Positions 5,848 to 53,658 of a DNA stretch of 64,000 bases are shown here, in pieces (the stretch's first letter is position 1; each line of letters begins with the position of its first letter). Source of the stretch: Apostichopus japonicus (Eukaryota > Echinodermata > Holothuroidea > Aspidochirotida > Stichopodidae); contig NC_092577.1 in the NCBI RefSeq assembly GCF_037975245.1, forward strand, positions 18,908,898 to 18,972,897, given 5' to 3'. Both the position numbers and the translations under genes were made by a program. Under the pieces are notes generated by a model that did not search any database, was not told the origin of the DNA, and saw only the letters and a program-made list of their open reading frames with translations.

Positions 5848-6643
5848 GAGGTGAGGCAGGAACTTGTCGTAACGGTTTTGGGTCGGTTTGGGGCTGTCAA
5901 GGCTGCCAAAATGTGCTCCTATGCACAAGCCCCTGGGGTGTTGAACGGGCACCGATAGGTTCGGATCGACCTGAAACAGGACATACCCTCCTTCCTGTTT
6001 ATAGCAGGGCATAAAGCCCACGTGCGGTATCCCGGTCAGCCCCGTACCTGCTTCAGGTGTGGGGAGACCGGGCACGAAGCCAAGGGCTGCCCAAACAAGA
6101 AATGTGGGCGCTGCCTTCGTCTTGGGCATGATAGCACCGCTTGCCCAAACGAGGTTGTGTGCTCACTATGTGGGAAGGAGGGATATGTCTTTCGAGCTCC
6201 TCCCTCCTCTTATGTCTCTAGGACTAAGAGTGGGGGTAAGTCAAGTTCCGACGCACCTACTACTTCACGAGAGGAGGGGGAATCTGTTGGGATTTTACCC
6301 TCCCCTGCACCTGGTTCACCCTCCCCCGTCGTTGCCCGCACCGAGAAAGTCTCCACCAGCTTCCCCCATCAACTCGTCCAGTTCCGTCCCCAGTCCGCCG
6401 CCGGTATCGCCAGATCCGGAGGCTTTGTCTGACGGAGAATCGGTGGTCATCGATTCTCCGGAGGCTCTGTCTGACAGCGACTCCGGTGAATCGGTGATCA
6501 GCGAGCCGAAACGTGCCACTGGGACGAGCTGGTACGACGAAATGGGGGAACCCTCTCTTAAAAGGTCGGCTTCAAGTGACGACTCGGACGACGATATGTC
6601 GTCTAGGGCGCGCTTGAAGCTTACGGAATCGTCGTCTTCGTAG
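5848..6643 (+). pseudogene. LINE ORF1 remnant, CCHC zinc-knuckle protein
   Basis: This covers the C-terminal part of ORF1. The knuckle block CFRCGETGHEAKGC is intact and the following knuckles are largely kept, with one Cys region altered (HVFRACPSS in the full copy is YVFRAPPSS here). A CAG codon of the full-length copy (GHRQVR) is TAG here near 5956, a nonsense change. A frame change after the proline-rich linker (about 6330) leads into the acidic Ser/Asp-rich tail ending in TESSSS at 6643. In the intact element the protein would bind LINE RNA. Confidence 0.8.
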
Positions 6644-6663
6644 TTTTGCCCCACTGCCCTCTC

Positions 6664-9600: not shown

Positions 9601-9949
9601 GCGATTGGGTGATGGACTGTGCCCAAGGACCGGCTGTGACAGCTTAGAGAGTACCGCTCATGTTTTTTGGCATTGTAACTTTGTTTTAAACTTATGGGAG
9701 TGGTTCCAGACCTGGACCGACCGTGTAACGGGAGACCGTTCATGGTCGGTAGGACAGGGCTTTATATTATATGGGGTAGACCCTCCAGTTTGTTCGATTG
9801 CTGTATTGCATCGCATTATTTTTGTTTGCTCTATTGTGAAGAAACATGTTTGGCGGAATAGATGTGATGTGGTTTTTAGGGGGAAGGTTGCCAGTTGGCA
9901 GGCAGTCCTAGCTAGAGGCGGTGAAGTCGGACATTCGCCTTCAAGTTGA
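6664..9949 (+). pseudogene. LINE ORF2 remnant: endonuclease, reverse transcriptase, C-terminal zinc finger
   Basis: Starts at an ATG (MAHTLSVATLNVNGMRD) like the intact ORF2. The endonuclease motifs (LQETH, GDFNCVPD, SRIDRVYAP, SDHDTVV), the RT motifs (LDQQKAFDMVD, RQGCPLSP, QYADDVTC) and the zinc-finger end (CPRTGC..., HVFWHC) are all recognisable but lie in several frames. Clear lesions: a T8 run at about 7030-7037 where the intact copy has T7; an extra base near 7738; indels around 7970-8080; a frame change with loss of sequence near 9226; and another shift close to the end. It cannot encode a working protein as read. Confidence 0.85.
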
Positions 9950-12835: not shown

Positions 12836-13624
12836 GCTTTTTACGTGACCCGTCACACGGGACACAAAACGTCACGGCCAAACGGCACCACCAAACCATC
12901 CCACTCTTACAAACGAACCTCAGGTCAAGCGAGCCAAAAAAAGTACATACGCTCACCGACCTGCAGAGACAAAACGCCCAACCCCCCACTGAAACATTAA
13001 AAAACTACAAAAGGACGACCAGCACGCAGCGAAACAAAACACCCTTCCCCAGCACACCACCGTCCAAAAAAGGCAGCCCTAGATAAACGGCGAAAATCGC
13101 CTTCAACCTGAAAGCGAATGTCAGACTTCACCGCCTCCAGGACTGCCTGCCAACTGGCAAATTTCCCCCTAAAAACATCACATCTATTCCTCCAAATAAG
13201 TTTTTTACAACAGAACAAACATAAATAATACGCTGCAACACAGCAACGGAACAAACTGGGGGATCTAATCCATACAAAACAAAACCCTGTCCTACCGACC
13301 AGGAACGGTCTCCCGTTAAACGGTCGGTCCAGGACTGAAACCACTCCCACAAGTTCAAAACAAAGGGGCAATGCCAAAAAACATGGGCAGTACTCTCTAA
13401 GCTGTCACAGCCGGTCCTCGGGCACAGTCCATCACCCAATCGCCAGTGATACCTTTTCAGATTGGTCACCAAGGCACCGTGTGCAATTCTCCATGCAAGG
13501 TCACGGAGCCTGCAACTATTCAGCCTTGAATGCACCGAACGCCATACTTCGACAGGATGACGTCCCTGTACAAAAATTGCATTCAAGGCCCTATCCCGCA
13601 ACGAACTGCGGGATACACGTCGAA
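12836..13624 (-). mobile_element. Tx1-like LINE 3' fragment (copy E)
   Basis: Minus-strand 5'-truncated copy covering the C-terminal part of ORF2 (zinc finger CPRTGC...HVFWHC) and the 3' untranslated region. It is flanked by a 15-bp duplication CTACACGTCGTTTGT (12821-12835 and 13625-13639). About 15 bp at its 5' junction are not LINE-like and partly repeat the flank, suggesting templated filler. The coding part has a one-base loss in the FRGKF region. The hairpin is CCCGT-GTG-ACGGG. Confidence 0.9.
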
Positions 13625-13639
13625 CTACACGTCGTTTGT

Positions 13640-15274
13640 AAGTTGTAGGACTACCAGTACTGCAGTACCTAGTACTAGGTATCACCATTCAATACATTAC
13701 ACGTGCAGTAGTAACTAACTGTAGTATAGTAAAGGCTTCATGATTGACGCACCCTCGTAATTGACACACCTTCAAATATTACTAGCAACGATACAGCAGG
13801 CCACCTAAACATTTTGCAGTGTAGCAGAATTACACATTTCATCAGCTTGAATCCATTTCAGCTATTTGCTGATCAAATTGTGGTTTTTCTTAAGCTGTTA
13901 ACACCCTCCACCCAGTTTTGCACGTTTCTTGGTCATTTGGAATCTTACACCCTAAAAATAACCAACATTACACCACTTATCTCTGTGACCTGACCTGTCT
14001 GAGCTTAGAGGCTCAGAGCATAGCAAACTGCATACAAAGTCAATTGATGTATACTAAGGCCTCACTACACTACACTACAGTTAGCTTATCAACGAATGTG
14101 TAAATTTAGGGGTATGAAAGAACTTGACACGGCAGACATTTTGATGTCAAATTCTGCTCAATTGTACAGTGCATAAGCACAGAACCCTAAATATTTAGAG
14201 ATCATTACATTTCTGAGGAACTACACATATGAAAAACACATACAGTTGAGTGATTTGGATTTTTCCTTCATATACAGTACATCGTTGATCAAATCCTATA
14301 GGCTTAAGTGCGTCAATTATCCCACCATGATACTAGTAGTAGTAACACGTAAATTGAGGCTACAATTCTTTAGAACAGCAAGGAAGCCCCAAAGCCCCCT
14401 ACTCATGACCTTCAAATATAAACAAGTAGCCTAATGAATGAAATAGGTACTTGTTCGGCTCGGCACACTCGATACCTCCTAGGCTACCCTATAGTACCTA
14501 GCTTAGGCTTGCCTAAGGTACAGTATGCCATACAACCGGCTAATATGCACAATTTCCATCCAATAATACTGCTGTTAGTGGCGACAAGTTTCACATAAAG
14601 TATATTGGATATTCAGGCAATGCGTAAGCCTTGGTTTCAAGTGAGCACCTTATCGGTAGTCTTTCACCGATAACATTACAGCTAAAATTAGATACTTACG
14701 TTGCTGGATGATATACAGGATGTGTACAACAGTCGTAGCCTACTTCGCGTACGTACGAACAGTGTACACCTCTGTGCTGTGTCTACAGTTGATGGCGCCA
14801 TGTCGTTACAAGTCTCGTACTGCGTTGGTCTAAAATTGCCAATTTTCGTTATTTTAGATCCAGAATATTCCAAATTTCACCAACAATAGCAATCATGTGT
14901 CTTTAATACAAATTCTGGATGTCGCTGATATATATATCCTAGTTTTCCCGTATATTGAGCGCAAAGTTGAGGTTAACATATATCCTACATACACCGTATG
15001 CGAAAATAACGTTATATACACTGTTGAGTGAGGCTCAGATTTGCACTAAAAATGCTCTTTATCGCAAGAACATACAATTAATTCTAAGTTAATTTCTGAT
15101 AAATACCATCATGTTGTCTACATTCGAAGTGAAATTTGTTTACACAACGCACGATATTTGAATTGGTAATGTCTCAGACTTATGTTTACCAAGAAGTTGG
15201 TAAACAGATGCGCAAGGTACACATAGGCCCCAGCTACCACCCACGAATGTAAACATATGCCCGCATTCATAACT
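13640..15274. other. Unassigned stretch
   Basis: About 1.6 kb with only short, unconvincing open readings. No exon, RNA gene or repeat recognised. Confidence 0.4.
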
Positions 15275-18067: not shown

Positions 18068-18268
18068 TGCGGACCACGTGGAGTGCGGACGTGTTTTCGC
18101 TCTTCATCTGTTACAGCTGTTATTGTACTGTGCTGTGCTATACTTCCCGCCAGGCGGGTGTGATAGCTTGTGTTCGTGTGTTTTCCTCAGTTCGTTTATC
18201 GTTTGTTGTTTCACTATCCTGTCCTTTGTTTTGTGTTACTCCCCTGTGGCCTAGCCACCTTCGGTATC

Positions 18269-19361
18269 ATGGCATCGCGCCGTGATTCTCGGATAGTTAA
18301 GTTGTCGTTCACCGGTGAACAAGCTGTTCCACCGGTGCAAGTTTTTAGTATTTTGAAGAGCAAGGGTGTTGTTGTGCCTGGAGAGGTTGATGCTTTGCAA
18401 GCTCTCCAGGGTCGTAATACGTACGATTTACGTTTTACCAGTGACGTGGCCCGTCAGAAAGGTGTCACGTTGCTGAGTAACGTCGAGGGGATGACAGTTA
18501 CTCCATATGAGCGATCCGTATGGGTAACTATCATCCACGTAGGACTAGAGGTGCGGCAGGAACTTGTCGTAACGGTTTTGGGTCGGTTCGGGGCTGTCAA
18601 GGCTGCCAAAATGTGCTCCTATGCACAAGCCCCTGGGGTGTTGAACGGGCACCGACAGGTTCGGATCGACCTGAAACAGGACATTCCCTCCTTCCTGTTT
18701 ATAGCAGGGCATAAAGCCCACGTGCGGTATCCCGGTCAGCCCCGTACCTGCTTCAGGTGTGGGGAGACCGGGCACGAAGCCAAGGGCTGCCCAAACAAGA
18801 AATGTGGGCGCTGCCTTCGTCTTGGGCATGATAGCACCGCTTGCCCAAACGAGGTTGTGTGCTCACTATGTGGGAAGGAGGGACATGTCTTTCGAGCTTG
18901 TCCCTCCTCTTATGTCTCTAGGACTAAGAGTGGGGGCAAGTCAAGTTCCGACGCACCTACTACTTCACGAGAGGAGGGGGAATCTGGTGGGATTTTACCC
19001 TCCCCTGCACCTGGTTCACCCCCCCCCCGTCGTTGCAGACCCCAACCTCGTGCCCGCACCGAGAAAGTCTCCACCAGCTTCCCCCATCAACTCGTCCAGT
19101 TCCGTCCCCAGTCCGCCGCCGGTATCGCCAGATCCGGAGGCTTTGTCTGACGGAGAATCGGTGGTCATCGATTCTCCGGAGGCTCTGTCTGACAGCGACT
19201 CCGGTGAATCGGTGATCAGCGAGCCGAAACGTGCCACTGGGACGAGCTGGTACGACGAAATGGGGGAACCCTCTCTTAAAAGGTCGGCTTCAAGTGACGA
19301 CTCGGACGACGATATGTCGTCAAGGGCGCGCTTGAAGCTTACGGAATCGTCGTCTTCGTAG
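18269..19361 (+). pseudogene. LINE ORF1, zinc-knuckle RNA-binding protein, one frameshift
   Basis: The ATG at 18269 (MASRRDSRIVKLSF) matches the start of the ORF1-only element. The N-terminal domain runs to YPGQPRTC. Three knuckles follow at residues 161-211: CFRCGETGHEAKGC, CGRCLRLGHDSTAC and CSLCGKEGHVFRAC. The frame then meets a C10 run at 19019-19028. Reading straight on gives an early stop at 19150, whereas a one-base change there joins the Ser/Asp-rich tail (SDGESVV, SDSDDDMSSRARLK) that ends at 19361, just ahead of ORF2. Copy C has a shorter C run at this place. The break is therefore either a single slippage mutation or a homopolymer reading error. The intact protein would be about 364 residues. 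Confidence 0.85.
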
Positions 19362-19381
19362 TTTTGCCCCACTGCCCTCTC

Positions 19382-22300
19382 ATGGCCCATGCACTTTCAG
19401 TTGCCACTTTGAACGTGAATGGCATGAGGGATCATCGCAAGCGCAGTCGCATTTTCCAATATTGTAAATCAATGGAGGTCGACTGCGTTTGCCTGCAAGA
19501 AACACATATTTTGGAAGAAGATGTCCCTCTATGGGCTTATGAGTGGGGTGGTGAGCTGCATGCTTCGTTTGGTTCGTCTTCATCCTGTGGCACTGTCATC
19601 CTTCTGTCAGCTCGTCAGGCGGGTTGTGCCACTAGGGTGGAGACGGATCACGAGGGCCGATTGGTTTGCATTCTATTCAAGTATCCACAGGGTAACATCG
19701 CCATTTGCAATGTGTATGCTCCCAATCGGCCTTCTGCTAGACGAGATTTTTTTAACACGCTGCCTTCCTTTGTTCCTGGTAGTGCGCCGTGTGTCATGGT
19801 CGGAGACTTTAACTGTGTCCCAGACTCGGGTCTTGACAGACTCGGAACTTCTGTGTCTGCAAGTCCCGACGCTGGGATCACAGAATTGGACAGATTCACT
19901 TCGGCACACCTTTTAGCCGATGTCTGGAGGCATATGCACCCGTGTAGTACGGTGTATACGTGGGTGAGGCCTAACGGAGAAGATGCCTCCAGGATAGATC
20001 GAGTGTATGCGCCCGTAAGTTTGAAATTTTCGGGTTGCGAGACGCTCAGCTGTCCGCTCTCTGACCATGACACTGTAGTAGCACGTTTTGTTTTGCCTTC
20101 CATTTTCCCCATCGGGCGGGGCCTATGGAAGCTTAACTGTCGGATTCTTGGCGAGGCAGAGTTCCGCCAGGGTTTCGAGACCAGGTACAAAGGATGGCAA
20201 ACATTGAAGCCGGCCTTTGCTTCTACATCCCAATGGTGGGATGAGGTCAAGTTGCGCATCAAACGCTACGCAATTCAGTATTGCGTGACCCGCGCACGGC
20301 GTCGAAGAGAAAAATTCTCCAAGCTGTGCGCGGAGGTGAAGTTTGGCGACCCTTCGGCAGTCATCGCTTTGCAGACTTATCTCGATGAAAAGTACCACGG
20401 TGCCCGCGTCAGGGCCCGTGTCGAAGCGGTGGAAGCCGAGGAGCGCCCTTCACTGAGGTTTTACCAGTCCGTTAGTTCATCGGCAGGTGACAGACGCGTC
20501 CCGTCTGTACGCGCTACTGATGGGACCGTGGTTAGTGACCCTCACGGCATTGTCCGCGTATATAAAGAGTACTATTCGAGTTTGTTTACGCGTGGCAATG
20601 TCGACTTGTCGGCACAGGCTGATTTATTGAGGGGAATCTCAAAAAACGTTCCCCACGATGTCAATGATATTTTGGGGGGCGAAATAACCACTGTTGAGCT
20701 TTGGAAGGCGCTTTCGAAGATGAAGAATGGCAAGTCCCCGAGTTCGGACGGGCTTCCGAGGGAGTTCTACCGAACCTTCTGGGCAATAATAGGACCCGAC
20801 ATCAGAGCCGTCTTCGAGGACGCCTTCCAAAACGGACTGTTAAACCAAAGTCAACGTCTGGGCATGATTACTTTGCTGCCCAAGTCTGGGGACCCCTTGG
20901 ATCCCCGTAACAAGCGTCCGATCACCTTGTTAAATGTGGACTACAAGTTGCTGGCTAAGGCTTTGTGCAACCGCCTTGCACTGGCTATGCCGCATCTTGT
21001 GGGTGATCTCCAGACTTGTGCAGTGAAGGGTCATTGCATCCAGCAGAACTTGTGGTTGATGCGCGACTTGACCGACTTGGTTATTGAGCGTGATCTGCCA
21101 TGTGCATTGGTGTCTCTGGACCAGCAGAAGGCCTTTGACATGGTGGATCGCGGTTTTTTAATGAATGTATTGGAGACGTTTCAGTTGCACCCAAATTTTC
21201 GTAATTGGATTTCTGTTTTGTATGAAGAAAGTTTCAGTTCTGTTATCGTAAATGGGTTTTGTTCGGAGGTTTTTAACGTAGAGAGGGGGGTGCGCCAGGG
21301 GTGCCCTCTGTCTCCATTACTTTATGTTTTGTTTAGCGAGTCCCTCTCTCGTCTTTTGGAAAGGGACTCCAGACTTGTTCCATTCGTTGTGCCAGGGGGT
21401 GCCAAAGTGAAATGCGCTCAATATGCAGATGACGTGACATGTGTTGTTTCGAGTCTGGGCTCCTTTCGCGCACTCTCGCAGGATTTATCTATTTTTGAGA
21501 GAGCTACCGGGGCGAAGTTGAATCCAGAAAAGACAAAGGGCCTTCGTCTTGGTGGCTGGAGATACAGAGACTTACCATTCGGTGCGTCGTGGTCGGATCA
21601 GAATATCAAAATTAATGGTATATGGTTCGGCTACGATGCACCTGGTGATGTCACCTGGAGCGAGAGGGCTGAGGTATTTGAGAGCAGGCTCGAAACCTTT
21701 GGCACCCGCTGGCTTTCGATCCTAGGGAAAGTCACCGTAGTTAATCGTTTTGTTTCGCCCATCTTGTGGTACCCGGGCGCGGTGTATCCAATTCCGCGTC
21801 GCGTCCTGGTGCGGTTGGAGAGAGCGATATTTTCATTTATTTGGTCGGGTGGTACAGAGCTTGTCAAAAGGGCGGTAATGTACCAAAAACTGGAGAAGGG
21901 TGGGTTAGGGGTGGTTCATCTGGGAAGTAAGTTAACTTGTTTGTTATTTAAGCAGTTGTTTGTAGCGGTAACTGACCCAGGGTTGCCTTGTTCATATTTT
22001 GTACGTTTTTGGGGCGGTTTGCACCTGCGTCGATGGGTCCCGGCGCTGTTTAGCAACAGAGAACCGCATAGTAGTACTCCAAACAGGGTGGTGCGTGTCA
22101 TTTGCTCCGCTCTGATTGAGTTGCCCCCTGTTGACCTGTCACAGCCGGCCCTCGTTCACAGTTCGTTGCGGGATAGGGCCTTGAATGCAATTTTTGTACA
22201 GGGACGTCATCCTGTCGAAGTATGGCGTTCGGTGCATTCAAGGCTGAATGGTTGCAGGCTCCGTGACCTTGCATGGAGAATTGCACACGGTGCCTTGGTG

Positions 22301-22774
22301 ACCAATCTGAAAAGGTATCACTGGCGATTGGGTGATGGACTGTGCCCGAGGACCGGCTGTGACAGTTTAGAGAGTACTGCCCATGTTTTTTGGCATTGCC
22401 CCTTTGTTTTGAACTTGTGGGAGTGGTTTCAGTCCTGGACCGACCGTTTAACGGGAGACCGTTCCTGGTCGGTAGGACAGGGTTTTGTTTTGTATGGATT
22501 AGATCCTCCAGTTTGTTCCGTTGCTGTGTTGCAGCGTATTATTTATGTTTGTTCTGTTGTAAAAAAACTTATTTGGAGGAATAGATGTGATGTTGTTTTT
22601 AGGGGGAAATTTGCCAGTTGGCAGGCAGTCCTGGAGGCGGTGAAGTCTGACATTCGCCTTCAGGTTGAAGGCGATTTTCGCCGTTTATCTAGGGCTGCCT
22701 TTTTTGGACGGTGGTGTGCTGGGGAAGGGTGTTTTGTTTCGCTGCGTGCTGGTCGTCCTTTTGTAGTTTTTTAA
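19382..22774 (+). CDS. LINE ORF2: AP-type endonuclease, reverse transcriptase, CCHC finger
   Basis: Uninterrupted 1130-residue reading from ATG 19382 (MAHALSVATLNVNGMRD). Residues 1 to about 235 are an AP-like endonuclease (VCLQETH, GDFNCVPD near 141, SRIDRVYAP, LSDHDTVV near 225) that would nick target DNA. The RT lies at about 490-850, with LDQQKAFDMVD near 577, GVRQGCPLSPLLY near 635 and the catalytic YADD at 681. The thumb region contains LGKVTVVNRFVSPILWYP. From about 987, CPRTGCDSLESTAHVFWHC is a zf-RVT-type finger. It acts by target-primed reverse transcription, with ORF1 as RNA-binding partner. A start at TTG 19364 is possible but less likely. This copy could still encode active enzyme. 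Confidence 0.95.
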   Translation: MAHALSVATLNVNGMRDHRKRSRIFQYCKSMEVDCVCLQETHILEEDVPLWAYEWGGELHASFGSSSSCGTVILLSARQAGCATRVETDHEGRLVCILFKYPQGNIAICNVYAPNRPSARRDFFNTLPSFVPGSAPCVMVGDFNCVPDSGLDRLGTSVSASPDAGITELDRFTSAHLLADVWRHMHPCSTVYTWVRPNGEDASRIDRVYAPVSLKFSGCETLSCPLSDHDTVVARFVLPSIFPIGRGLWKLNCRILGEAEFRQGFETRYKGWQTLKPAFASTSQWWDEVKLRIKRYAIQYCVTRARRRREKFSKLCAEVKFGDPSAVIALQTYLDEKYHGARVRARVEAVEAEERPSLRFYQSVSSSAGDRRVPSVRATDGTVVSDPHGIVRVYKEYYSSLFTRGNVDLSAQADLLRGISKNVPHDVNDILGGEITTVELWKALSKMKNGKSPSSDGLPREFYRTFWAIIGPDIRAVFEDAFQNGLLNQSQRLGMITLLPKSGDPLDPRNKRPITLLNVDYKLLAKALCNRLALAMPHLVGDLQTCAVKGHCIQQNLWLMRDLTDLVIERDLPCALVSLDQQKAFDMVDRGFLMNVLETFQLHPNFRNWISVLYEESFSSVIVNGFCSEVFNVERGVRQGCPLSPLLYVLFSESLSRLLERDSRLVPFVVPGGAKVKCAQYADDVTCVVSSLGSFRALSQDLSIFERATGAKLNPEKTKGLRLGGWRYRDLPFGASWSDQNIKINGIWFGYDAPGDVTWSERAEVFESRLETFGTRWLSILGKVTVVNRFVSPILWYPGAVYPIPRRVLVRLERAIFSFIWSGGTELVKRAVMYQKLEKGGLGVVHLGSKLTCLLFKQLFVAVTDPGLPCSYFVRFWGGLHLRRWVPALFSNREPHSSTPNRVVRVICSALIELPPVDLSQPALVHSSLRDRALNAIFVQGRHPVEVWRSVHSRLNGCRLRDLAWRIAHGALVTNLKRYHWRLGDGLCPRTGCDSLESTAHVFWHCPFVLNLWEWFQSWTDRLTGDRSWSVGQGFVLYGLDPPVCSVAVLQRIIYVCSVVKKLIWRNRCDVVFRGKFASWQAVLEAVKSDIRLQVEGDFRRLSRAAFFGRWCAGEGCFVSLRAGRPFVVF

Positions 22775-30332: not shown

Positions 30333-31635
30333 ACTTACCATTCGGTGCGTCACGGTCGGATCAAAATATCAACATTAATGGTATATGGTTCGGCAACGAT
30401 GCACCTTGTGACGTCACCTGGAACGAGAGGGCTGAGGTATTTGAGAGCAGGCTCGAAGCCTTTGGCACCCGCTGGCTTTCGATCCTAGGGAAAGTCACCG
30501 TAATTAATCGTTTTGTTTCGCCCATCTTGTGGTACCCGGGCGCGGTGTATCCAATTCCGCGTCGCGTCCTGGTGCGGTTGGAGAGAGCGATATTTTCATT
30601 TATTTGGTCGGGTGGTACAGAGCTTGTCAAAAGGGCGGTAATGTAGCAAAAACTGAAGAAGGGTGGGTTAGGGGTGGTTCATCTGGGAAGTAAATTGACC
30701 TTTTTGTTATTTAAGCAGTTGTTTGTAGCGGTAACTGACCCAGGGTTGCCTAATTGTTCATTTTTTGTACGTTTTTGGGGCGGTTTGCACCTGCGTCGAT
30801 GGGTCCCGGCGCTGTTTAGCAACACAGAACCGCATAGTAGTACTCCAAACAGGGTGGTGCGTGTCATCTACTCCGCTCTGATTGAGTTTCCCCCTGTTGA
30901 CCTGTCACAGCCGGCCCTCGTTCACAGTTCGTTGCGGGATAAGGCCTTGAATGCCGAAGTATGGCGTTCGGTGCATTCAAGGCTGAATGGTTGCAGGCTC
31001 CGTGATCTCGCATGCAGAGTTGCACACGGTGCCTTGGTGACCAACCTTAAAAGATATCATTGGGGATTGGGTGATGGACTGTGCCCTAGGACCGGCTGTG
31101 ACAGCTTAGAGAGTACTGCTCATGTTTTTTGGCATTGTTGCTTTGTAGTAAACTTATGGGAGTGGTTCCAGACCTGGACCGACCGTGTTACGGGAGACCG
31201 TTCATGGTCGGTGGGGCAGGGCTTTATTTTATATGGGGTAGACCCTCCAGTTTGTTCGGTAGCTGTGTTGCACCGCCTCATTTTTGCTTGCTCTATTGTA
31301 AAAAAACATGTTTGGCGGAATAGATGTAATTTGGTTTTTAGGGGGAAATTTGCCAGTTGGCAGGCAGTTCTGGAGGCGATTTTCGCCGTTTATCTGGGGC
31401 TACCTTTTTTGGACGCTGGTGTGCTGGGGAGGGGTTTTTCGTTTCGCTGCGTGCCGGTCGTCCTTTTGTAGGTTTTTGAACGTGTGGGGGGGGTGGGCGT
31501 TTTGTCTCTGCAGGTCGGCGGGCGTATGTTTTTTTGGCTCGCTAGACCTGAGTTTCGTTTGTCAGAATGGGATGGTTCGGCAGTGCCGTTTGGCCGTGAC
31601 GTTTTGTATCCCGCATGGCGGGTCACGTAAAAAGC
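30333..31635 (+). mobile_element. Tx1-like LINE 3' fragment (copy F)
   Basis: 5'-truncated, starting in the RT thumb region (LPFGAS.SDQ) and ending at CACGTAAAAAGC. The coding part has a stop (ATG TAG for ATG TAC, near 30643), an extra codon (LPNCSF for LPCSYF), a deletion that joins ALNA to EVW near 30954, and loss of the EAVKSDIR region near 31377. The hairpin is CCCGC-ATG-GCGGG. No clear target duplication was found. Confidence 0.9.
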
Positions 31636-43408: not shown

Positions 43409-44642
43409 TGCTCTAGCAGGCCCGTCGCACCCGCTACGGTAGGTACGGTATTTACCGTACCACTTTTCAGCTAAAAAAAAAAGAGGGAGGGGGAGAAGAA
43501 AATAGGTGAGGGAGTTAGAAAATACAGTTCGAATCAATAAAATGCACGAGTCTTCATGACCAAAGCCGACCCTCTGTACCATCATTGTGTCCTATGATGC
43601 GATGAGCCCCGGATGGGCCGGCACGAATTATTCAACGAATCTCAAGTTGTAACTGGGGCGATAGGGGCCTACGATTCGAGTCGCACCGAATTTCCCCAAA
43701 CCCCCGAATTCCCCCCATTTCCCTAAGAAGGTGTCAAACCCGGAGATGTTTTACTTAGTTGAGCAGTGTAACAGTAAATACCGTCCGGATAATTAGGGCA
43801 ACGTACAATGTATAGGGCGTGTCCCCGCGCTGCGCTACACCGGCAACTCAACGCAAAGTGTTAGAGTAATACCTCTCCAGGATCGTAAAATAAAACGCCA
43901 TCAAATCATCATCCGATTTATGTATAGCCCCCTCTAATTGTAGAAAGTTCAGTTCAGAGACATCGCGGAATGGCTACCTGCACTTTCGTGATACTTCGAA
44001 CAAGATTCTGCGTTACATCACTGACTTCTGATCCTGTGACGGAAACGGTAAATAAATAATTTTTCATTCGATCATATGTACGGTCCAGGGGAGGGTCAAA
44101 ACTCATACAGTCTCGAATTTAGACCCGGCGTCCCGAAAGCATGCCGTCGCCGTGGTTGAAATCAGGTTTCCATGGGAAATACCATAGAGTAGGCCTAGGG
44201 TAGGCCTTGGCTTCCTGTTGCATTGACATGCACACGACAGTATGGGTGGCCTCAAATTCCGAATGATTTTGTGACCTAAATGTCATCTTCATCTCACATG
44301 GAAAAAATATAGGCAATCATGACAATGGAATGAATAGAATCCGGATTGATAACAGGTGTTTTGGAGAAATTTTGAACAATTCGAGAAATTTTGGGTGAGC
44401 TTCTCAAGTAGGCTACTGGGGGCATGATCCAGGCCTGTGTGAGACAAAATGGCGGTCGATTCGAGATCGAGACCATGAATTTACTATTTTACAAAATTAT
44501 TCAATTACAAAATTACCTGCAATAATCATAGGGCCTCAATCCCTCAGAATGTGAAGGATTAATGTTCAAATCGGGTCAAACGTTCCCATACACACATAAT
44601 TTACTTTGATAGTCTTCATGCTCATTCTTGCAGATAACCATT

Positions 44643-44919
44643 ATGTCCAGTGTCTCCCGATCTAGTGGTAAAAGAGTCGTAATACGACGTGAGAGGTGTG
44701 TGCTGACAGACAACGCGCGCGAGCAAGGTCTCCAGATACGATGGGATGTCCCGGGAGATGGATCGTGTTGGTTTCACTCCGTTTTGGATCAATGTGATGA
44801 ACTTGGCCTTCACATCCCTGACGTTGAACCGGGACACCACTTCACACTTCCCAGGCAAAGGCAGCGAATGAGAGCCATGCAGCTTAGGAACGCCGTTCTG
44901 GATTTTTTTTGGAACGCTG
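44643..44919 (+). CDS. OTU-type cysteine protease exon with catalytic Cys
   Basis: ATG at 44643, just after an acceptor-like CTCATTCTTGCAG. The reading contains WDVPGDGSCWFHSVLDQ; D39-G-S-C42-W-F fits the OTU catalytic motif DG.C.F. The exon continues through PRQRQRMRAMQLRNAVLDFF to a strong donor, CTG followed by GTGAGC (after 44919). OTU proteases cleave ubiquitin chains. It ends in phase 1, whereas the next exon starts in phase 0. The T8 run at 44903-44910 is where one base would reconcile them, so this may be a mutation or a homopolymer error. Confidence 0.65.
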
Positions 44920-45162
44920 GTGAGCGTTTTTCATGCCTAATTTTATTATATGATGATAGGCCTACAATTGTTAGAAATGGATATAAAACATTTGCATATC
45001 ACATGTTGAAAACTGATCTACTACCATTATAGGCCTAGTCTGATAGACTATCAGAAAGGAGACATCAGGACTTCTTACAATCTATCTAGGAATGACTGAG
45101 CAGACTCACAACATCGTCATCCCAGTATCTAACTCTGCAGCTATATTATTTTGTCCTCACAG

Positions 45163-45419
45163 GATCCCAATGACCCACTGGTGAGAGGCGTTCGCACACC
45201 AGGCTTGTTTCGTGAAAATACAGAGGAGAGAATGAAGGCATATAAGGAGTATGTCGACGAGTGGGTAGTGCGTGCTACTGCCCATTTGATCGGGCGTGAC
45301 ATACTCATAGTCACTAGTAGCGTCTCAGATTATCGGACGATGATAGTGCCAAACCCCAGGTGAAGATGAGCCACTTCTGATAGGACAACTTGTAGAGGGA
45401 TGCCATTTCATATCGTTAG
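45163..45419 (+). pseudogene. OTU-type exon 2 with catalytic His, one frameshift
   Basis: Begins after TTGTCCTCACAG with DPNDPLVRGVRTPGLFRENT, then YVDEWVVRATAHLIGRDILI. Near 45357-45361 the frame must shift by one base to continue GEDEPLLIGQLVEGCHFISL. The His in CHF (45404-45406) is in the position expected for the OTU catalytic histidine. The exon ends at a good donor, TTAG followed by GTGCGT. It ends in phase 1, and the next candidate exon (45865) begins with two bases, so those phases agree. With the shift, this copy would not make a full protease. Confidence 0.6.
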
Positions 45420-45696
45420 GTGCGTATAATGGCAGGGTTGGCATTTTCCCAGGGAAAAACCTGTTTTCCCGCAAAGTGGTGAAAACCAGGAAAAAAAACA
45501 GGAAAAACTCGTAAATACCGATGAATACCACTTCCGTTTTAGAAATTTCGCATATGATATGGACATATGTCTGTTATGCAGGGTCCACATATTGGACAAT
45601 CACAGGCTATATGCCTAATTGAATATGAAAACTTCTGTGGCAAGAAGTTTTTCGACAGTAGCTTGCCTAGATATCTTTCCATGCAGTGCGCACGGG

Positions 45697-46096
45697 CGGG
45701 GGGGGGGGGTCACTCTCCATTGGGCACAGGACATCACGCGCGACCAGAGGGTCAGAAAAAGTCCCCTAAACAAGTAAGCTCCCAGTTCTAAAATGTACCC
45801 CCAAACACGTATACCCAACACCGCGAAACGGCCGCGTATATCTATGATACACATGCAATTGCAGGCGTCTTCACTGTGGACCCGACTGCTGCCGGAGAGG
45901 CATCGGAGGCTCGGCTAGCTGGACAGTTCAAATGGTGGTTGCTTTTCAATTTCAAACTGCCCTTACAAATTTAGGCTTTTTGCTACCCTTTTCACGTTGC
46001 GTACGTACAGTGACCAATCTTGGAAAACAACCCTTTTTACGTGTTTTCTTGGTCGCGGGTGATGTACACACGTCAATGGAGAGTAACCCCCCCCGG
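45697..46096. mobile_element. Inverted-repeat element within the hAT
   Basis: The arms at about 45697-45770 and 46020-46096 share (inverted) GGGGG(T)(C/T)ACTCTCCATTG, ACATCAC.CGCGACCA and AAAAAG. Exact ends and duplication are unclear because of the G and C runs. Confidence 0.45.
45865..45940 (+). CDS. Candidate linker exon
   Basis: After GCAATTGCAG the reading GVFTVDPTAAGEASEARLAG continues to QFKW, in phase with the preceding OTU exon. The 3' boundary is unresolved: nearby GT donors give the wrong phase for the next exon, so a small exon may be missing. It lies between the arms of an inverted repeat, which makes it less certain. Confidence 0.35.
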
Positions 46097-46577
46097 ACCC
46101 TGCTGCCCATTTTTATGGCTCTATCCCCACCCCTCTTGAATTTTGCTGGCCTTCATGATGCCTAGGTGTTTCCTCTCACAAACACCAAGTGATGATATAA
46201 TTGGTATTGTGCAGCAGTGGCACAGTGTAGCCCATATAGACTGTTGATGATTTGTAATTACCATTCAATCACCCTGCAATCCAGTCGTTTTTTCCATGAG
46301 CACCACTGGAAAATGAAATTACTGACAAACTACACCCGTAGCTAGCATATATACAGTGCATGGACATGGTGATTCAACTTTAATTGAAATGCATGTTTTA
46401 ACAAGATGCCTGTAAATCTTAATTGTCGAACATTATGCCTAGGCTACAGACCACTTGGCGATTTTCAACGAATGCCTCGTGCGTATTGAATCAAAGGGAG
46501 TATAATTTTATGAATGACAGTATATGATAACCGGTAGACAGGAAGCAGGGTGACAGTTATTACAGTTGCTGTTTTCT

Positions 46578-46632
46578 GATTGGTCAGTATTTTATGAGGG
46601 GAGGCGTACTTCTGTATCAACGCGCATGCGTC
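46578..46632 (+). promoter_or_regulatory. Possible internal promoter: CCAAT box and NRF1-like site
   Basis: GATTGG (an inverted CCAAT box) at 46578 and CGCGCATGCGTC at 46621. If used, the transposase could be transcribed separately from the OTU exons. Confidence 0.25.
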
Positions 46633-47348
46633 AATAGCTAAATCGATATATCGTGGATACCGTCAGTGAACTGTAAATGCCCAGTGGAGTTTGCCAAACG
46701 CATATCGCTCAACATGAATTGAGGGGTTGCATTTATTTTCAAAACTGCTCCATATCAATTGAAGGGTAAACTGAAGGTCAGGAACAATCATTCATGAAAC
46801 AGATTTTCATATTAATTTTTGATATGCTCAATTTATCCATTAGACGAGAACTATTACCAGTTATTCGAGAAAGACTCAACATATCTACCCCCATTCAAAA
46901 TGGTCTCTTCCAAAACTATCGGCCATTCAGAAAACTGTACATTTTCTTTGTGGAGGCCTACTGCTTTACCACCTCCCCCTCCCCCCGCTCCCAACTGTTT
47001 ACACCTCTGTTGCTGTCAACACTCTCAAATATAGAATGAATGATCTTCTGGAATGATCTTTTGGGAATGAAAAATAGGTAGGTGATCTTGAGTTCCCAGA
47101 TTTTGCTTTATCATAAATCTTAGTCCCAGTTCCGGTTACCACCCCTCTTCCCATCCCAAAAAGTCATTTTCTTGCAGTTTTCGTGCTTTCCAACATGTTC
47201 CATACAATTATTTAGGAATTCATATAGAAATTGAGGTTTTCCCAGTTTTTCCCAGCTCACTCCAGGTCACGATATGAGTATATAAAGTACGTATAGCCCA
47301 ACAGTGTTGCTAAGCCCTGAGACAGCGTATTTTTTTTTTATCAAACAG

Positions 47349-47491
47349 AGAAAATAGATGGCAATGACGCTGAAGGTGCATCCCAAAGTAGTCCAGGTGG
47401 CCGTATAACTTATGCAGCGGCTGTTGCTCCAAGTTCAACAACCACTACAACCGTCACCAGTGAGGTTGCAAGGGCAAGAAAGCGAGAACAG
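47349..47491 (+). CDS. Transposase N-terminal exon, low-complexity linker
   Basis: Preceded by a T-rich tract and CAAACAG, and followed by GTAGGA after GAACAG. Only one frame is open: EKIDGNDAEGASQSSPGGRI, then TYAAAVAPSSTTTTTV and SEVARARKREQ. It begins with two bases and ends in phase 0, matching the next exon. Ser/Thr-rich linker ending in a basic patch; no domain recognised. Confidence 0.6.
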
Positions 47492-47632
47492 GTAGGATAT
47501 TGGGGGGGGGGGGGTTCACGTGTGTGGGGGCGCTCTTTGCAGGACAGTATGATATTCGTGCGATTTTTAGCATAACGACAATATATTCAACACTTGTGTC
47601 ATTTTTCTCTACATGACGCACAACCCACCCAG

Positions 47633-47693
47633 TCTTCCCCGAAACGGAAATGGTCTAAGCAGAAAACACTCTTCAGTTTCGGCCTTGTGACAG
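47633..47693 (+). CDS. Small transposase exon with basic patch
   Basis: Follows CAACCCACCCAG and reads SSPKRKWSKQKTLFSFGLVT. It ends before GTAGCA in phase 1, and the next exon (48758) starts with the two matching bases. KRKWSKQK may be a nuclear localisation signal; a basic patch followed by a short F-rich stretch before the TTF finger is common in this transposase group. Confidence 0.6.
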
Positions 47694-48757
47694 GTAGCAG
47701 CAATCGGCGACAAGCTGGTATGTCTTCAAACCCCAAACATTTGAATTGGTTACAAATTAGACCTATAGAGCAACGCGCCGACGCGTCACACATCACGTCA
47801 CACAGCAACGACACGCCCCTGCTGCAGTGAAAACACTGCCTTGTAGATGCCGTCTGCCATAGTACCCCCGCGATAAGCAATCATATTTGCCCACCTGTTT
47901 TCTTTCAATTGGTACTTCATTCATGGATTGTGTTCGAATATCATGTAGGGAACTTGTTTATCTGTATATTCTAGTTACATCAAGAAATAAATTACCTCCA
48001 ACCTGCGTGAAACGGTTCTCCGAACATGTAAACATTCACCGGTGAACCTGTGGGTTCCCCAGTCTGCAGCGATACCAATCACGATTTAGTTGAGGGAAGC
48101 CAAACATGTTTACATCAAGTGATTCCGAATGTTTGCAAATATACTGGATACTTCCCTAAAATATTTCACTGTGGGATTTGATCATTTGAGCGTGGACGTG
48201 TATTTTGATCAGGCGAATGAGAACCACGTTTCCCGCCAAGAAATACAATCGCTAACGTACGCAGCTTTGCATTGAGATTGGCACAATACATGGAACAGTT
48301 TCGTGACACGGGTAGGGCATAATTTGTTTGAAACACGAAGTAGAAAACCTTTTGGGAAGGCTAAACAGCATGTGAGTGTTCCAGAGGGAATTCTCCTTAT
48401 GATTCAGGGAATTCAAATCCCCAAACCCAAGTCAACGCAGTGTTTTTCCTTGTGAAATGTGTGGGTGGAGAATGTAAACAAACGCGAGTAATACGAATGT
48501 ACCGTGCACTGTACGACAGCCCAGTTGCTTTCACCGGCGAACTCAGTGGGATGCGCTTAACCTGAAAAGTTCCTGGATGACCGCCTCGGTCTATATGCAA
48601 TTACAACATAACTAACGCTCCCTTTGAAACGATGATGATGAAAGTTAATGTATAGGGACTATGATAGGAACATCTATTCATCTTTAGCCTACGGCAGCAC
48701 GATTTCAATGCAAAATAATTAATCTGTCTCATAGTTTGCCTCTTTTTACCTTCGCAG

Positions 48758-49731
48758 CACGAACACCACAGACAACACCCTCTTCTGTGATGTCATCGCC
48801 ACCGAAAGCATCAGTAGCATCCACGGGGATGTCATCGCCACCAGCACCACCAGTAGCATCCACAGGGATGTCGTCGCCATCAGCACCACCAGTAGCATCC
48901 ACGGGGATGTCGTCGCCATCAGCACAACCAGTAGCATCCACGGGGATGTCGTCGCCATCAGCACAACCAGTAGCATCCACGGTGATGTCATCGCCACCAG
49001 CACAATCATTTACTGCATCATCTGCACCCACACCATCGAGATCGTCATCTACGAGATCATCAGCTACGACGTCTTCGTCTACGACGTCCATGAGCTCTGC
49101 GACATCTCCGACCGCTACTCCTGAAGTAGGAGATATTCCGCACCAACCACCTGACTTCGTTTTTCCAAAACGTAGTTTCGGAAAGAAGAGCAACGCACCT
49201 CAATACTCATTTCAACCATCATGGTTCCGAACTTATAAATGGCTTCACTATGACGAAAGTCGAGATATGGCCTTCTGTCACACCTGCATCCAAGCCCATA
49301 ATAGGAAGATACGCTTGATATCTGGAGGAAATGTGGATTTGGCATTCATCTCTACCGGCTTCAGGAACTGGAAAGACGCAACCAGGCGATTCAGAGCTCA
49401 CCAAGAGACGACTCACAAAGATGCAGTAATGATGTCAGTGACACTGCCCAAAACGACTACAGATGTTGGAGAGTCCCTCTCTAGTCAACTGGTCAAAGAA
49501 AAAAAGGAGCGTCGGGAGATATTTTTGAAGATAATTTCCAACATTCGATTTCTTGCCCGGCAAGGCCTAGCTCTCACAGGTGACGGCGATGAGTCTGACT
49601 CAAATTTTATAAGACTCTTCAAGTTACGAGGAGAAGACGACTCACGAATGGAGCAATGGCTTGAGAGAAAAACAGACAAGTATGTCTCCGCCGAGATACA
49701 GAATGAAGTTTTGCAACTTCTGGCATTGAGG
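48758..49731 (+). CDS. hAT transposase exon: Ser/Pro repeats and TTF-type zinc finger
   Basis: Bounded by TTTTTACCTTCGCAG and by GAGG followed by GTAAGA. A 13-residue repeat (VASTGMSSP(S/P)A(P/Q)P) occurs five times at 39-bp spacing from 48814, then a Ser/Thr tract. FPKRSFGKKSNAPQYSFQPS and WFRTYKWLHYDESRDMAFCH open the TTF-type finger (C..C in FCHTC, then GFRNWKDATRRFRAHQETTH), followed by the start of the DUF4371-like region (FLARQGLALTGDGDESDSNF). This is the layout of ZMYM1-like hAT transposases. It ends in phase 0, in register with 51062. The exon itself is intact. Confidence 0.85.
48790..49008 (+). repeat. 39-bp coding minisatellite
   Basis: GTAGCATCCAC(G/A)G(G/T)(G/A)ATGTC begins at 48814, 48853, 48892, 48931 and 48970, in frame with the transposase reading. 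The number of copies is likely to vary between copies of the element. Confidence 0.85.
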
Positions 49732-49833
49732 GTAAGATTACATTAGTAGTAAGTGGAGCATCCATAGGCTTGAACCAATCAGCGTCACGTATTTTTATGA
49801 CGTCATAACTCATGAATGTGTAATGAGGTGGCT

Positions 49834-49999
49834 GAGTCATTATGGGCCACAGCCAATCAGCGTCGAGTATTTCGATGACGTCATGACCCATGTGACCTCA
49901 TCCTAATTAACTACGGTCATTGGTTACACCCATTCTCATTAAATATTCTTGACGTCATCGATATACTCGACGTTGATTGGCTGTGACCCATAATGACTC
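49834..49999. mobile_element. Palindromic MITE-like element in the transposase intron
   Basis: 50-bp arms, 49834-49883 and 49950-49999, are inverted repeats with few mismatches (GAGTCATTATGGG, CACAGCCAATCA, CGTCGAGTAT, TCGATGACGTCA). A diverged direct copy of part of the arm lies at about 49777-49833. No coding capacity. Confidence 0.75.
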
Positions 50000-50003
50000 C
50001 ACA

Positions 50004-50337
50004 CAGTGGCGTAACCAGTGGGGGCCGGGGGGAAGACTGCCCCTCCCGAAGAGCTACAACGGGAAGGGGAAGGCAAAAAATCGGGGAGGGAAGGAAGAAA
50101 GCGGAAACGGGAACGCAGAAGAAAGAACACTGAAGGTGCAGAAAAGCGGGCGGGCGAAGAGGGAACTGGGAGATAATCGGGAAATAGACGCACAATGTGT
50201 GCTTGAAAAGGTCCTCAGTTTTCTGGAGAGGGTAAATACGGTCTTCGATAGGACAGGCCACCCCATCGACGGAAGATTTTCGGGAAGTTTTGGGGATGTT
50301 GCCCTCCCCCGGACCGTGAGGTCTTGTTACGCCACTG
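50004..50337. mobile_element. Non-autonomous hAT MITE, 334 bp
   Basis: Ends CAGTGGCGTAAC and, inverted, CAGTGGCGTAAC. The 8-bp flanks ACTCCACA (49996-50003) and ACTCCACG (50338-50345) match at 7 of 8. It lies in the intron between the TTF and catalytic exons. The terminal sequence differs from that of the host hAT, so it belongs to another family. The long reading through it has no family resemblance. Confidence 0.85.
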
Positions 50338-51061
50338 ACTCCACGTGAAATGATTTATCGAATTCCATCGTGTCTTTTTGAAATAAGTCATATTAGTATA
50401 AACGGCGACTGCATTCTATGAAAACACAAATACCCTATGTCACCATTGAAGTGTCATGAACTGTCACAAGGTGGTAATGAATCGGCTAGCTGCTTATTCG
50501 AAAATGCTGACCGAGTCACAAGTATCCACAAAAAGATGCGAATTAGAGGCCTACTGAAATAATAGCGATAGGCAAACAAAAACCAGTTAACCGGTGTCAT
50601 CCCTCCTTACAACGATATACCTCACAATTAATAACCAACATAGGCTTAGGGGCCATTCATTTGGGCCCGGCCTGTTGGCATGAGCTTGTAGCTGCCCGGA
50701 AGTTCTGAGGACCCTTTTCTTGCGTTTCATCTTGTCATCGAATTACCTCGAGGGGGAAGAATTACTGTGTAACGGTAGATAAAATGTGTATATTCCAGCT
50801 ACTTCGCAATTAATTTCAGCGCCCCCTTTCCTTCCGAACTATGTCATGGTGGTCTGCCCGATTTATTTGAGCAGCCACACGAAATTTCATAGCATACTGC
50901 CCGGTTTTGCACAACACACTGCGCGAATTTTTGTATGAAAGTGCACGAATTGTTACGAAAATTTCGGTTTGGGTGCTCCAGCCCACTTCCCCCGCCTCCT
51001 ACGCCTATGATAACCAATTGAAATCACAAAATACTATGTGCTTTCTTGTGTTCTTTCATAG

Positions 51062-52585
51062 GTCCTGCGAGAAGTTGTATCCAAAGTGCAGTCTTCTGAT
51101 TTCTACACTCTAATGGTGGACGAAACACCTGACGTGTCAAACTTGGAGCAAGTTGTTATCTGTTTGCGCTGGGTTGACGGCGCATTTGAGGTTCACGAGG
51201 AATTCATAGGCCTATATACCACTGCGACGACAACAGCTGATCAGCTTCTTCTCATAATAAAAGACGCTCTGCTCAGGATGAACCTGTCATTGTCAAAAGT
51301 GCGTGGCCAATGTTACGATGGTGCGGCTGCAATGTCAGGTGTACATTCAGGGGTTGCGACTAAATTGATGATAGAGGAACTCACTGCTACGGCCACGCCC
51401 TCAATCTCGCGTGCTCAGACACTATAAAGAATATCGCACTAATGAGAGATGCGCTGGATAATACAAAAGAAATTACCAAACTTATAAAGAATTCGCCGAG
51501 ACGTGGCAGCAAATTTGAAGAAGTCAAATCAAATCTTGCGGAAGCTGCACCAATCGGCATACGTACCATGTGCCCAACGAGATGGACAGTTAAGGCGGAT
51601 GCTTTGGAAAGTATCATAGACAACTACGATACGCTCCAAAAGGTTTTCGAGGAGTGTTTAGCTATTGAAAAAGATGCAAACACAAAGGGGCGCTTAAGAG
51701 GGATCCTGTCATACATGAAGAGTTTCGATTACTTCTTCGGAGCCAAGTTGGGTCACCTCCTTCTGAGTCACAGTGACAATCTCAGCAGAACTCTCCAGAA
51801 AAAAGATATATCTGCGGCGGAGGGTCAAGAATGTGCCAGTAAAACTGTCCTTGCCAAAAAGCGTGACCAATTCCAGTCGTTTTGGACCAATGTCACGTCG
51901 GAAGCCTTAAAATTAGCCGTAGATGAGCCTGAACAAAAACGGCAGAGGAAAGTGCCAGCCAGATTAGTTTCTGGTTCGGCCGCGGATATCATGCCTCCAG
52001 AATCAGTGGAGGACTACTTCAGGCGAATATACCTGGAGGCAGTTGACACCATTTGTCAACTGCATCCGCGATAGATTTGATCAGGAGGGTTACAAAATCT
52101 ACTCAAAACTACAGCAGCTGCTTCTCAAAACGTGTAACCAACAACATGTTGACGAAGAACTGTTAAAATTCGTATGTGACTTTTACGGCGAGGATCTCCG
52201 TAAGGGCGAGCTCAGAGTCCAACTAGAAACCCTTGGGGAAACCATGGAAGCTACGGCCAAACAATCAGTGTGGACTTTGCCAGAGGTTGTTGACCACATG
52301 CGAGGGTTGAGTTTCGGTAATCGTGAGCTCCTCTCACAAGTGTGCACGCTTGTCAAACTAATTTTAGTGATGCCTGCGACAAATACAGTAAGTGAACGCT
52401 CATTTAGTGCTATGAAGCGTGTAAAGAGTTACTTAAGGTCTACAAAGACCCAGCAGCGACTCAACCACCTTATGATCTTACATGTACACAAAGATTATGC
52501 GGATCGATTGAATCTAGTTGATGCAGCCAACGAATTTACCAGTGCCAAAGACCATCGACGCTCGGTGTTTGGTACTTTCCATTGA
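51062..52585 (+). pseudogene. hAT transposase catalytic exon with two frameshifts
   Basis: Starts after TTGTGTTCTTTCATAG in phase 0. First part: VLREVVSKVQSSDFYTLMVD (D at 51119), ETPDVSN and RGQCYDGAAAMSG (D at 51317). At about 51383 a small deletion changes frame. The second part resumes HCYGHALNLACSDTIKNIAL and includes MCPTRWTVKADAL and VEDYFRRIYLEAVDT. At about 52055 one extra base shifts the frame again, giving FVNCIRDRFDQEGYKIYSKL and the C-terminal dimerisation block MPATNTVSERSFSAMKRVKS (E at 52394) to a stop at 52583-52585. The acidic residues and ERSFS block are those of hAT transposases. As read, it cannot make active enzyme. Confidence 0.88.
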
Positions 52586-53658
52586 TTTGAGTTCGCAGTA
52601 GAACGCTGCACACTAACCGATAGCCGGTGCTCCTTTTAACAGCGCCCATGCCCATGCTCTTCAGTATAGTAGTCGTTGTGATACCGGGAGCTTATAGGAG
52701 CATTAATTCCAGGAAGAAAGAGGGCTAAATTATACGAAAAATGCTCACATTTGCTGACCCTACAACTCTAATCCTCAACCCTAACAAAGGATACAGTAGA
52801 TCATCCTATACAACTGAATTGCTACAGGCAATCGGGTAATATCCTATATTCTGCGCCCCAACTGCAGAAAGAACAATGCTTGGAATTTGGAAATTGGAAA
52901 AAGTACTGCAGTATGGAGAGGATTCCACCCAGGTGTTGGTTGTCACCAACGCCGTAACGAAATAATCATTGTTAACGTTTATTGCATAATTTCAAAAGCC
53001 TCACAGAGACTAACCGCACTCGGCGAAATCTTTGCTCACCCACAAAACATTTTTGAAGCCCTAACCTCAAAGGAAGGTAGACTAATTGAGGAATCATTTT
53101 AGATAATCGTAACACTCATAAGAACTAGCAAGATTATCAAATTCGGATAAACTGTAACTATTACAGTACAGGCAGTTGTGAACCTTTCATTTATTTTTAC
53201 TGGCGTAACGACGGTGCGGCCGTCCCGCCACTAAGTTGGAAAAGACCTCCAGCCCGTCGGAATTTCTAACATTCATACCCCTACTATAAGACCCTAGCTA
53301 GTAGCTATACCGCCCTGCATACACTTTGTAAGTTGAAAGTGCTATATGCTCTTCCGGTGCAGCTGTGAAGGACATGGGCGCGAGAAGGTAGAACATCCAT
53401 GACTAAAGATGGGATTCTTCAGTTCATGTAGTTATAAATGAAAAAATACTGAGTTCGCAGGAGGAAAGTGTACAACATCGTGGCCAAATTTTGCCCCGCA
53501 AGTGCCATTTCCAGCCATCTGGGCGGTTAGAAGATTCAAAAATTTTCTTGTACGCTCCGCGCCAACCGATGGTGGCGCTCCGCTTAGATAGTAAATCGAA
53601 CCGGTGAACAAAAATACCGTACCACTTTCAAATACCTTCCGACGGGCCTGTGCTCTAG

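Follow-up and report, generated by a model that had tools for sequence, protein, structure and literature searches.

Structure of the element

The window analysed here, a stretch of 64,000 nucleotides from the genome of Apostichopus japonicus, contains at positions 43417–53650 a hAT transposon of approximately 10.2 kb with exons for an OTU-type cysteine protease upstream of its transposase exons. The genome comprises 671.6 Mb in 35 contigs, designated C14, C16, C17 etc. in the following, and the window corresponds to C17:18908898-18972897. Since the window could be placed within the whole genome, further copies of the element were readable as well.

The element is bounded by an exact 8-bp target-site duplication (TSD), TGCTCTAG, at positions 43409–43416 and 53651–53658, with no further occurrence on the + strand of the window. 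Its ends form an exact inverted pair of 11 bp, CAGGCCCGTCG at position 43417 and CGACGGGCCTG at 53640–53650. An 8-bp duplication around such an 11-bp pair at a spacing of 0.5–20 kb occurs a single time in the window, in agreement with an earlier note on this DNA, which had recognized the duplication and the matching ends. With the ends relaxed to 9 bp, three pairs were found in the window against five in total over 20 Markov shuffles; shuffles were run for this 9-bp case only.

OTU cysteine proteases are characterized by a catalytic Asp-Gly-x-Cys motif and a His motif. As the earlier note had stated, both lie inside the element, on the + strand: DGSCWF at 44757 and CHF at 45401, with two further CHF at 47597 and 53503. 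A Pfam scan of nine open reading frames (ORFs) of the window identified DUF4371 (4.2e-14) and Dimer_Tnp_hAT (2e-6) in + strand exons. The hAT exons proposed earlier were thus recovered; the TTF finger proposed with them is matched only weakly by zf-C17orf113, with 0.083 in the window and 0.0017 in the C16 protein described below, which was scanned separately. Both values are below the cut-off.

The sole other full-length copy found, C16:620950-631444, has the OTU exons at the same place; the non-coding sequence aligned between it and the window copy, 6968 bases, shows 45 substitutions. Compared with it the window copy is decayed: both OTU exons and the hAT exon contain frame-breaking length changes, and one linker acceptor lacks its AG, a decay that the earlier note had not recognized. 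In this state the window copy could only be mobile in trans. The features of the element, in window coordinates, are as follows.

43409..43416, no strand: left copy of the TSD TGCTCTAG, the single pair in the window with 11-bp ends
43417..43427, + strand: left terminal inverted repeat CAGGCCCGTCG
44643..44919, + strand: OTU exon 1, with GDGSCWF as catalytic Asp/Cys motif; broken in the window, open in C16
45163..45419, + strand: OTU exon 2 with the catalytic His motif CHFISL, donor in phase 1; broken in the window, open in C16
47349..47491, + strand: linker exon entered in phase 1 and left in phase 0; it reads EKIDGNDAEG...ARKREQ in C16
47615..47693, + strand: linker exon with the KRKWSKQKTLFSFG motif, which we take to be PIP-like; acceptor AG missing in the window, present in C16; counterpart in the second family
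48758..49731, + strand: exon of the Ser/Thr/Pro-rich linker, with 39-bp tandem repeats, and of the TTF-type finger
51062..52585, + strand: hAT catalytic/DUF4371 and dimerisation exon; broken in the window, 514-amino-acid open frame in C16 and C8
53640..53650, - strand: right terminal inverted repeat
53651..53658, no strand: right copy of the TSD TGCTCTAG

In the C16 copy both OTU exons are open and are accompanied by a TTF frame of 356 and a hAT frame of 514 amino acids. Six GT-AG exons, with no base altered, join into a predicted OTU - TTF finger - hAT protein of 1,095 amino acids, the exon end phases 0, 1, 0, 1, 0 matching across the joins. Two exon borders given in the earlier note were revised: after the OTU donor at 45419 the preferred acceptor is 47349 instead of 45865, and the start of the exon that follows is moved from 47633 to 47615. 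Acceptor 45865 is phase-compatible, but no good donor was seen after it by eye. Chains that skip a linker exon were also rejected for C16 (E2 to E5, 42 stops; E4 to E6, 53 stops). A direct join of E2 to E6 is open, and a shorter splice form is possible. In the fused protein DUF4371 scores above the cut-off, and Dimer_Tnp_hAT reaches 21.0 bits compared with a cut-off of 21.4 bits.

Other copies of the window family

A genome search with the left end gave 16 matches at 14 loci. Besides the window, ten of the other 13 loci were fetched; for the remaining three (C8:19.10, C6:7.22 and C9:33.69 Mb) a span of about 4 kb was judged from the end matches. Eight of the ten fetched copies have an exact 8-bp TSD, and the copy on C15 matches in seven of eight letters. 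All nine fetched copies without OTU exons are internal-deletion derivatives in which all or most of the TTF exon is gone too. A full-length copy lacking the OTU, named in the earlier note as the observation that would speak against an OTU-bearing element, was not found among the left-end loci. Searches with the OTU protein of this family gave strong matches at the window and C16 only.

In window terms, the deletion comprises 44463–49852 in the copy at C8:34.71 Mb, which carries a 9.2-kb insertion, and 43797–51701 in the C12 copy. The other seven derivatives (L005, L007-L012) share one deletion, 43858–51938, with an overlap of 9 bp at the junction. Since their TSDs differ, one non-autonomous form has multiplied. 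Five of these seven contain an insertion at 53158–53166.

A second hAT family with an OTU

A second, diverged hAT family carries the argument that the OTU is a component of the element. Its transposase at C14:3451237-3453312 is 32% identical to that of the window family and lies 3.1 kb downstream of OTU matches on the same strand. The complete element, C14:3443564-3454595, has a length of 11,032 bp, the ends CATGGGCGTCAATCC/CAGGGGCGTCAATCC, inverted repeats of 15 bp with one mismatch, and the exact TSD GACCTAGT. The ends were located via deletion derivatives, of which four were fetched: the one on C23 has an exact TSD, those on C15 and C5 match in seven of eight letters, and at C19 the ends were looked for and not found. 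Its 802-amino-acid frame matches DUF4371 (2.1e-20), and both DUF4371 and Dimer_Tnp_hAT are above the cut-off.

The OTU introns of the two families interrupt the same codons in the same phases. The first is in phase 0 after LRNAVLDFFGTL / LRAEICDYMQYN; the donor of OTU exon 2 is in phase 1 after HFISL / HYVSL, and in both families the following exon starts so that the junction reads SL-E. The next exon reads KRIEKQSTIHSFF in the C14 family and KRKWSKQKTLFSFG in the window family, with a common pattern KR..KQ.T[LI].SF that was drawn up once both exons had been seen and occurred in 0 of 2000 shuffles. Phases in the C14 element are compatible through to the TTF exon, and the two later junctions use phases other than those of C16.

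Further copies of this family lie on C17. The one at C17:12990 is decayed and retains co-linear homology from the OTU to the hAT part; those at C17:12999/13015 and C17:25350 contain the OTU, the full transposase not being seen in the stretches fetched. These copies show that the OTU belongs to the repeat. Together, the full-length C16 copy and the same arrangement in the distantly related C14 family bear out the central proposal of the earlier note, a hAT element with an OTU as a part of its own.

The OTU domain

The OTU exons of the two families were compared in a profile of three OTUs, two of which are near-identical. The GDG.C and H columns, containing the catalytic Asp, Cys and His, are invariant in this alignment, and these positions are kept between two OTUs that are about one-third identical. 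The profile matches the OTUD5 and OTUD3 chains of solved structures with 2e-5 and 1.4e-4. Of the Pfam models suggested in the earlier note, DUF4371 and Dimer_Tnp_hAT were matched in the window, and the OTU model (gathering score 23.3 bits) was matched in the C14 family (1.8e-13, 51.5 bits); the two OTU-exon ORFs of the window, scanned singly, gave no Pfam match.

Between copies, the first OTU exon of the C14 family is weakly depleted in substitutions (p 0.04, 0.14 and 0.13). The ratio of non-synonymous to synonymous substitution rates (dN/dS) for this exon is 0.48 and 0.56 against two decayed copies, and undefined in one further pair with two changes, both non-synonymous. Taken together with the less favourable values given below, the selection evidence between copies is thin and too weak to decide; the kept catalytic positions are the better sign.

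Relatives without an OTU and other OTU repeats

Three sister hAT insertions of 4.5–5.5 kb were found at C22:2235976-2241039, C17:7007863-7013383 and C7:2.54 Mb (4.47 kb). Compared over 14 letters, the two ends of each agree at 12, 12 and 14 positions, respectively. The loci C14:16239228 and C4:4263890, closer kin of the C14 element, have no OTU in the 8 and 7 kb upstream. In total an OTU was seen in two of eight related loci, for which the upstream stretches were unequal (1.5 kb for C17:23493). A tree of 14 rows unites these OTU-less relatives and both OTU families in one group of nine rows (98/98), with the window branch unresolved. The OTU is thus an extra of some hAT families, which may have inherited it with losses or gained it more than once. 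One fusion is favoured because of the shared OTU introns and the common SL-E junction.

OTU sequences also occur elsewhere in the genome. On C20, two regions (12326001-12342500 and 12158001-12175000) contain OTU exon 1; a decayed TTF-hAT, possibly of a third OTU-hAT type, follows on the same strand at a distance of no more than about 600 bp, and the exon-1 donor is at the same place as in the OTU-hATs. The pair (C20:12338281 and C20:12171166) was not accepted as a third case, as it is apparently a single segmental duplication in which ends and OTU exon 2 were not found. The locus C17:18471453 was likewise discarded, with OTU exon 1 alone and a hAT match on the opposite strand. Beyond the two families, the C20 pair, C17:18471447, C20:21132586 and C3:6750299, there are 25 further rows of exon-1 relatives. 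Four of the 25 were fetched, C20:23197080, C4:23162712, C7:26026197 and C12:29844864. They are 80–85% alike and represent a separate, decayed repeat family whose OTU exon-1 relative is 38–64% identical to the C14 OTU; the roughly 6 kb that follow downstream gave no match to a transposase. Open frames of approximately 2300–2490 amino acids with a Pfam OTU were observed at C14:7509386, C23:1203522, C17:24304477 and other places. We can only guess that they belong to another OTU-bearing mobile element, e.g. a Helentron; two of these pieces (L029, L033) match the exon-1 profile of the hAT OTUs weakly, with 0.0028 and 0.001.

Additional repeats in the window

The intron between the TTF and hAT exons contains a 53-nt inverted repeat, 92% identical, at 49834–49886 and 49947–49999 with TGACGTCA cores, and the deletion at C8:34.71 Mb joins within it, at 49852. 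Inside the right end of the element, 53444–53599 is a short repeat found at more than 20 other places, mostly at 78–91%. Outside the element, a non-LTR (long terminal repeat) retrotransposon occupies 18167–22774 on the + strand, with fragments at 6005–9949, 13128–13688 (- strand) and 30647–31471. By its motifs we take it to be such an element, with CCHC knuckles and an endonuclease/reverse-transcriptase-like frame of 1158 amino acids. A CCHC ORF resembling its own is also present in the region of the OTU-hAT copy at C17:25350.

Proposed function and alternative explanations

Based on the arrangement common to both families, we consider it probable that a single gene of this cut-and-paste hAT transposon encodes an N-terminal, deubiquitinase-like OTU domain, which the short motif exon and a linker rich in Ser, Thr and Pro connect to the TTF-type finger and the hAT transposase, and that the OTU edits ubiquitin in cis. 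Splicing of all these exons into a single transcript and ubiquitin hydrolase activity of the OTU are inferred. Carried along by the transposase, the domain would reach the element ends and there most likely deubiquitinate, in cis, either the transposase itself or repair or replication proteins at the break. As a consequence transposition, or the survival of excision events, would be raised. The earlier note had suggested that deubiquitination may stabilise the transposase or blunt host control. The role of a cis-acting ubiquitin editor is suggested by analogy, because of the precedent of Ginger1 and Helentrons (see below) and the position of the domain.

The motif exon could extend this scheme. 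PCNA is bound via the PIP box, with the consensus Q..[IL]..F[F], which the motif may resemble: it is complete in the C14 family (QSTIHSFF) and lacks the last aromatic residue in the window family. A self-deubiquitinating transposase, in which the OTU and a PCNA-binding-like motif would edit ubiquitin at the excision site (e.g. on PCNA or the transposase) in convergence with Ginger1, seems to us a doubtful proposition.

A number of observations weigh against a single OTU-transposase gene. Open, phase-compatible chains are common by chance: a two-exon chain was open in 32% and a one- or two-exon chain in 68% of 50 intron shuffles, so that the open C16 chain by itself is weak evidence. A direct join of OTU to TTF is open in C16 as well. 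The C14 copy hits a stop in the linker under the proposed chain, for which a start codon was not identified, and the sequences flanking the C16 copy do not form a TSD (left TATATATA, right AGCTCAAG). The OTU of the window family, joined across its exons, remains below the Pfam OTU cut-off (0.078, 13.9 bits), and a scan of the entire C16 fusion protein, up to E = 1, does not return the model. Between window and C16, the OTU exons are not depleted in substitutions (1/276 and 0/257 compared with 45/6968 in non-coding sequence, p 0.47 and 0.20), and the TTF exon, with 14/973, is above the non-coding rate. OTU exon 2 of the C14 family is not depleted either (p 0.44, 0.25), with dN/dS of 0.31 and, in one comparison, 1.5. 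Finally, the three sister insertions have exact 8-bp TSDs and no significant OTU match, the scan reaching to within 0.2–0.4 kb of the end in those on C7 and C17, and on the 14-row tree the OTU label has to change twice, given the starred branches.

These last points would be accounted for if the two hAT families had acquired the OTU independently from one intron-containing source gene, an explanation that is compatible with the fusion and that we regard as possible, if not likely. It agrees with the presence of an OTU in only two of the eight related loci, the OTU-free upstream stretches at C14:16239 and C4:4264 among them, and one label change suffices in 0% of 200 bootstrap trees. A single gain followed by losses fits equally well, however, and the shared linker motif and SL-E junction downstream are not expected from capture of the OTU only.

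Alternatively, the OTU might be a separate gene of the element with its own protein and 3' end, like the accessory ORF in Helentrons, where the available text of PMC4067079 describes the OTU as an additional ORF. On reading through the exon-2 donor, the C14 and C17:25350 copies stop right after SLGR, so that a short OTU protein might be made without splicing; the ease with which chance alone yields open chains is also in favour. We nevertheless judge a separate gene to be unlikely, as donor codon and phase are common to both families, the acceptors give the same SL-E junction, the order of the linker exons is shared, and OTU exon 2 of C16 continues for about 30 codons into the intron with no immediate stop. 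That a fragment of a host or other-element OTU was captured by chance in one hAT copy as a non-functional passenger would suit the broken window copy, the separate decayed OTU-exon repeats and the two label changes, but is highly improbable given two hAT families with differing ends and about 32% transposase identity, both with the two OTU exons in the same order, the same introns and the catalytic residues retained.

Comparison with known systems

The description of the Ginger1 transposons is reportedly that of Bao et al. 2010. In these DNA transposons an OTU or Ulp1 protease domain is fused to a DDE-type transposase, and it was suggested that the protease may contribute to transposition by way of DNA repair under ubiquitin control (available text of PMC2836005). 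The element described here resembles them in apparently combining a DDE-type cut-and-paste transposase and an OTU within one protein. According to the same text, the transposase of Ginger1 is Gypsy-integrase-like and its OTU is C-terminal, whereas here a hAT transposase with 8-bp TSDs is preceded by an N-terminal OTU in two exons of its own. No integrase model was matched among the transposase ORFs scanned, which matched hAT-type domains; the whole word 'hAT' does not occur in the main text of PMC2836005 as available.

The earlier note had mentioned OTU domains in other mobile elements such as animal Helitrons. This is in line with PMC4067079, whose available text describes for Helentrons a cysteine protease that is OTU-like and has residues conserved. 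These elements are likewise mobile DNA of animals; in contrast to the apparent transposase fusion found here, they are rolling-circle elements with a Rep/helicase and the OTU as a separate ORF. No Rep/helicase was found in the nine window ORFs scanned or in the C16 fused protein, the other ORFs of the element lying outside the scan. The cellular OTUD5 and OTUD3 are the best matches of solved structure, but the similarity is weak, and the OTU here is transposon-encoded with putative activity.

Among DUF4371/TTF-type hATs the element is typical in DUF4371, Dimer_Tnp_hAT, the 8-bp TSD and short ends starting with CA; the OTU-bearing forms are 10.2 and 11.0 kb long, compared with the 4.5–5.5 kb of the three OTU-less sisters. 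A description of an OTU-bearing hAT was not found in the literature searched, which reaches few subscription journals. The pairing of OTU and transposase was thus not found described for hAT transposons, the OTU fusion itself being known from Ginger1. Should the fusion prove real, cut-and-paste transposases would have gained ubiquitin-editing domains on at least two occasions, in Ginger1 and in hAT elements, and the older suggestion of ubiquitin control over transposition would become testable, with the OTU-less sister families as natural controls.

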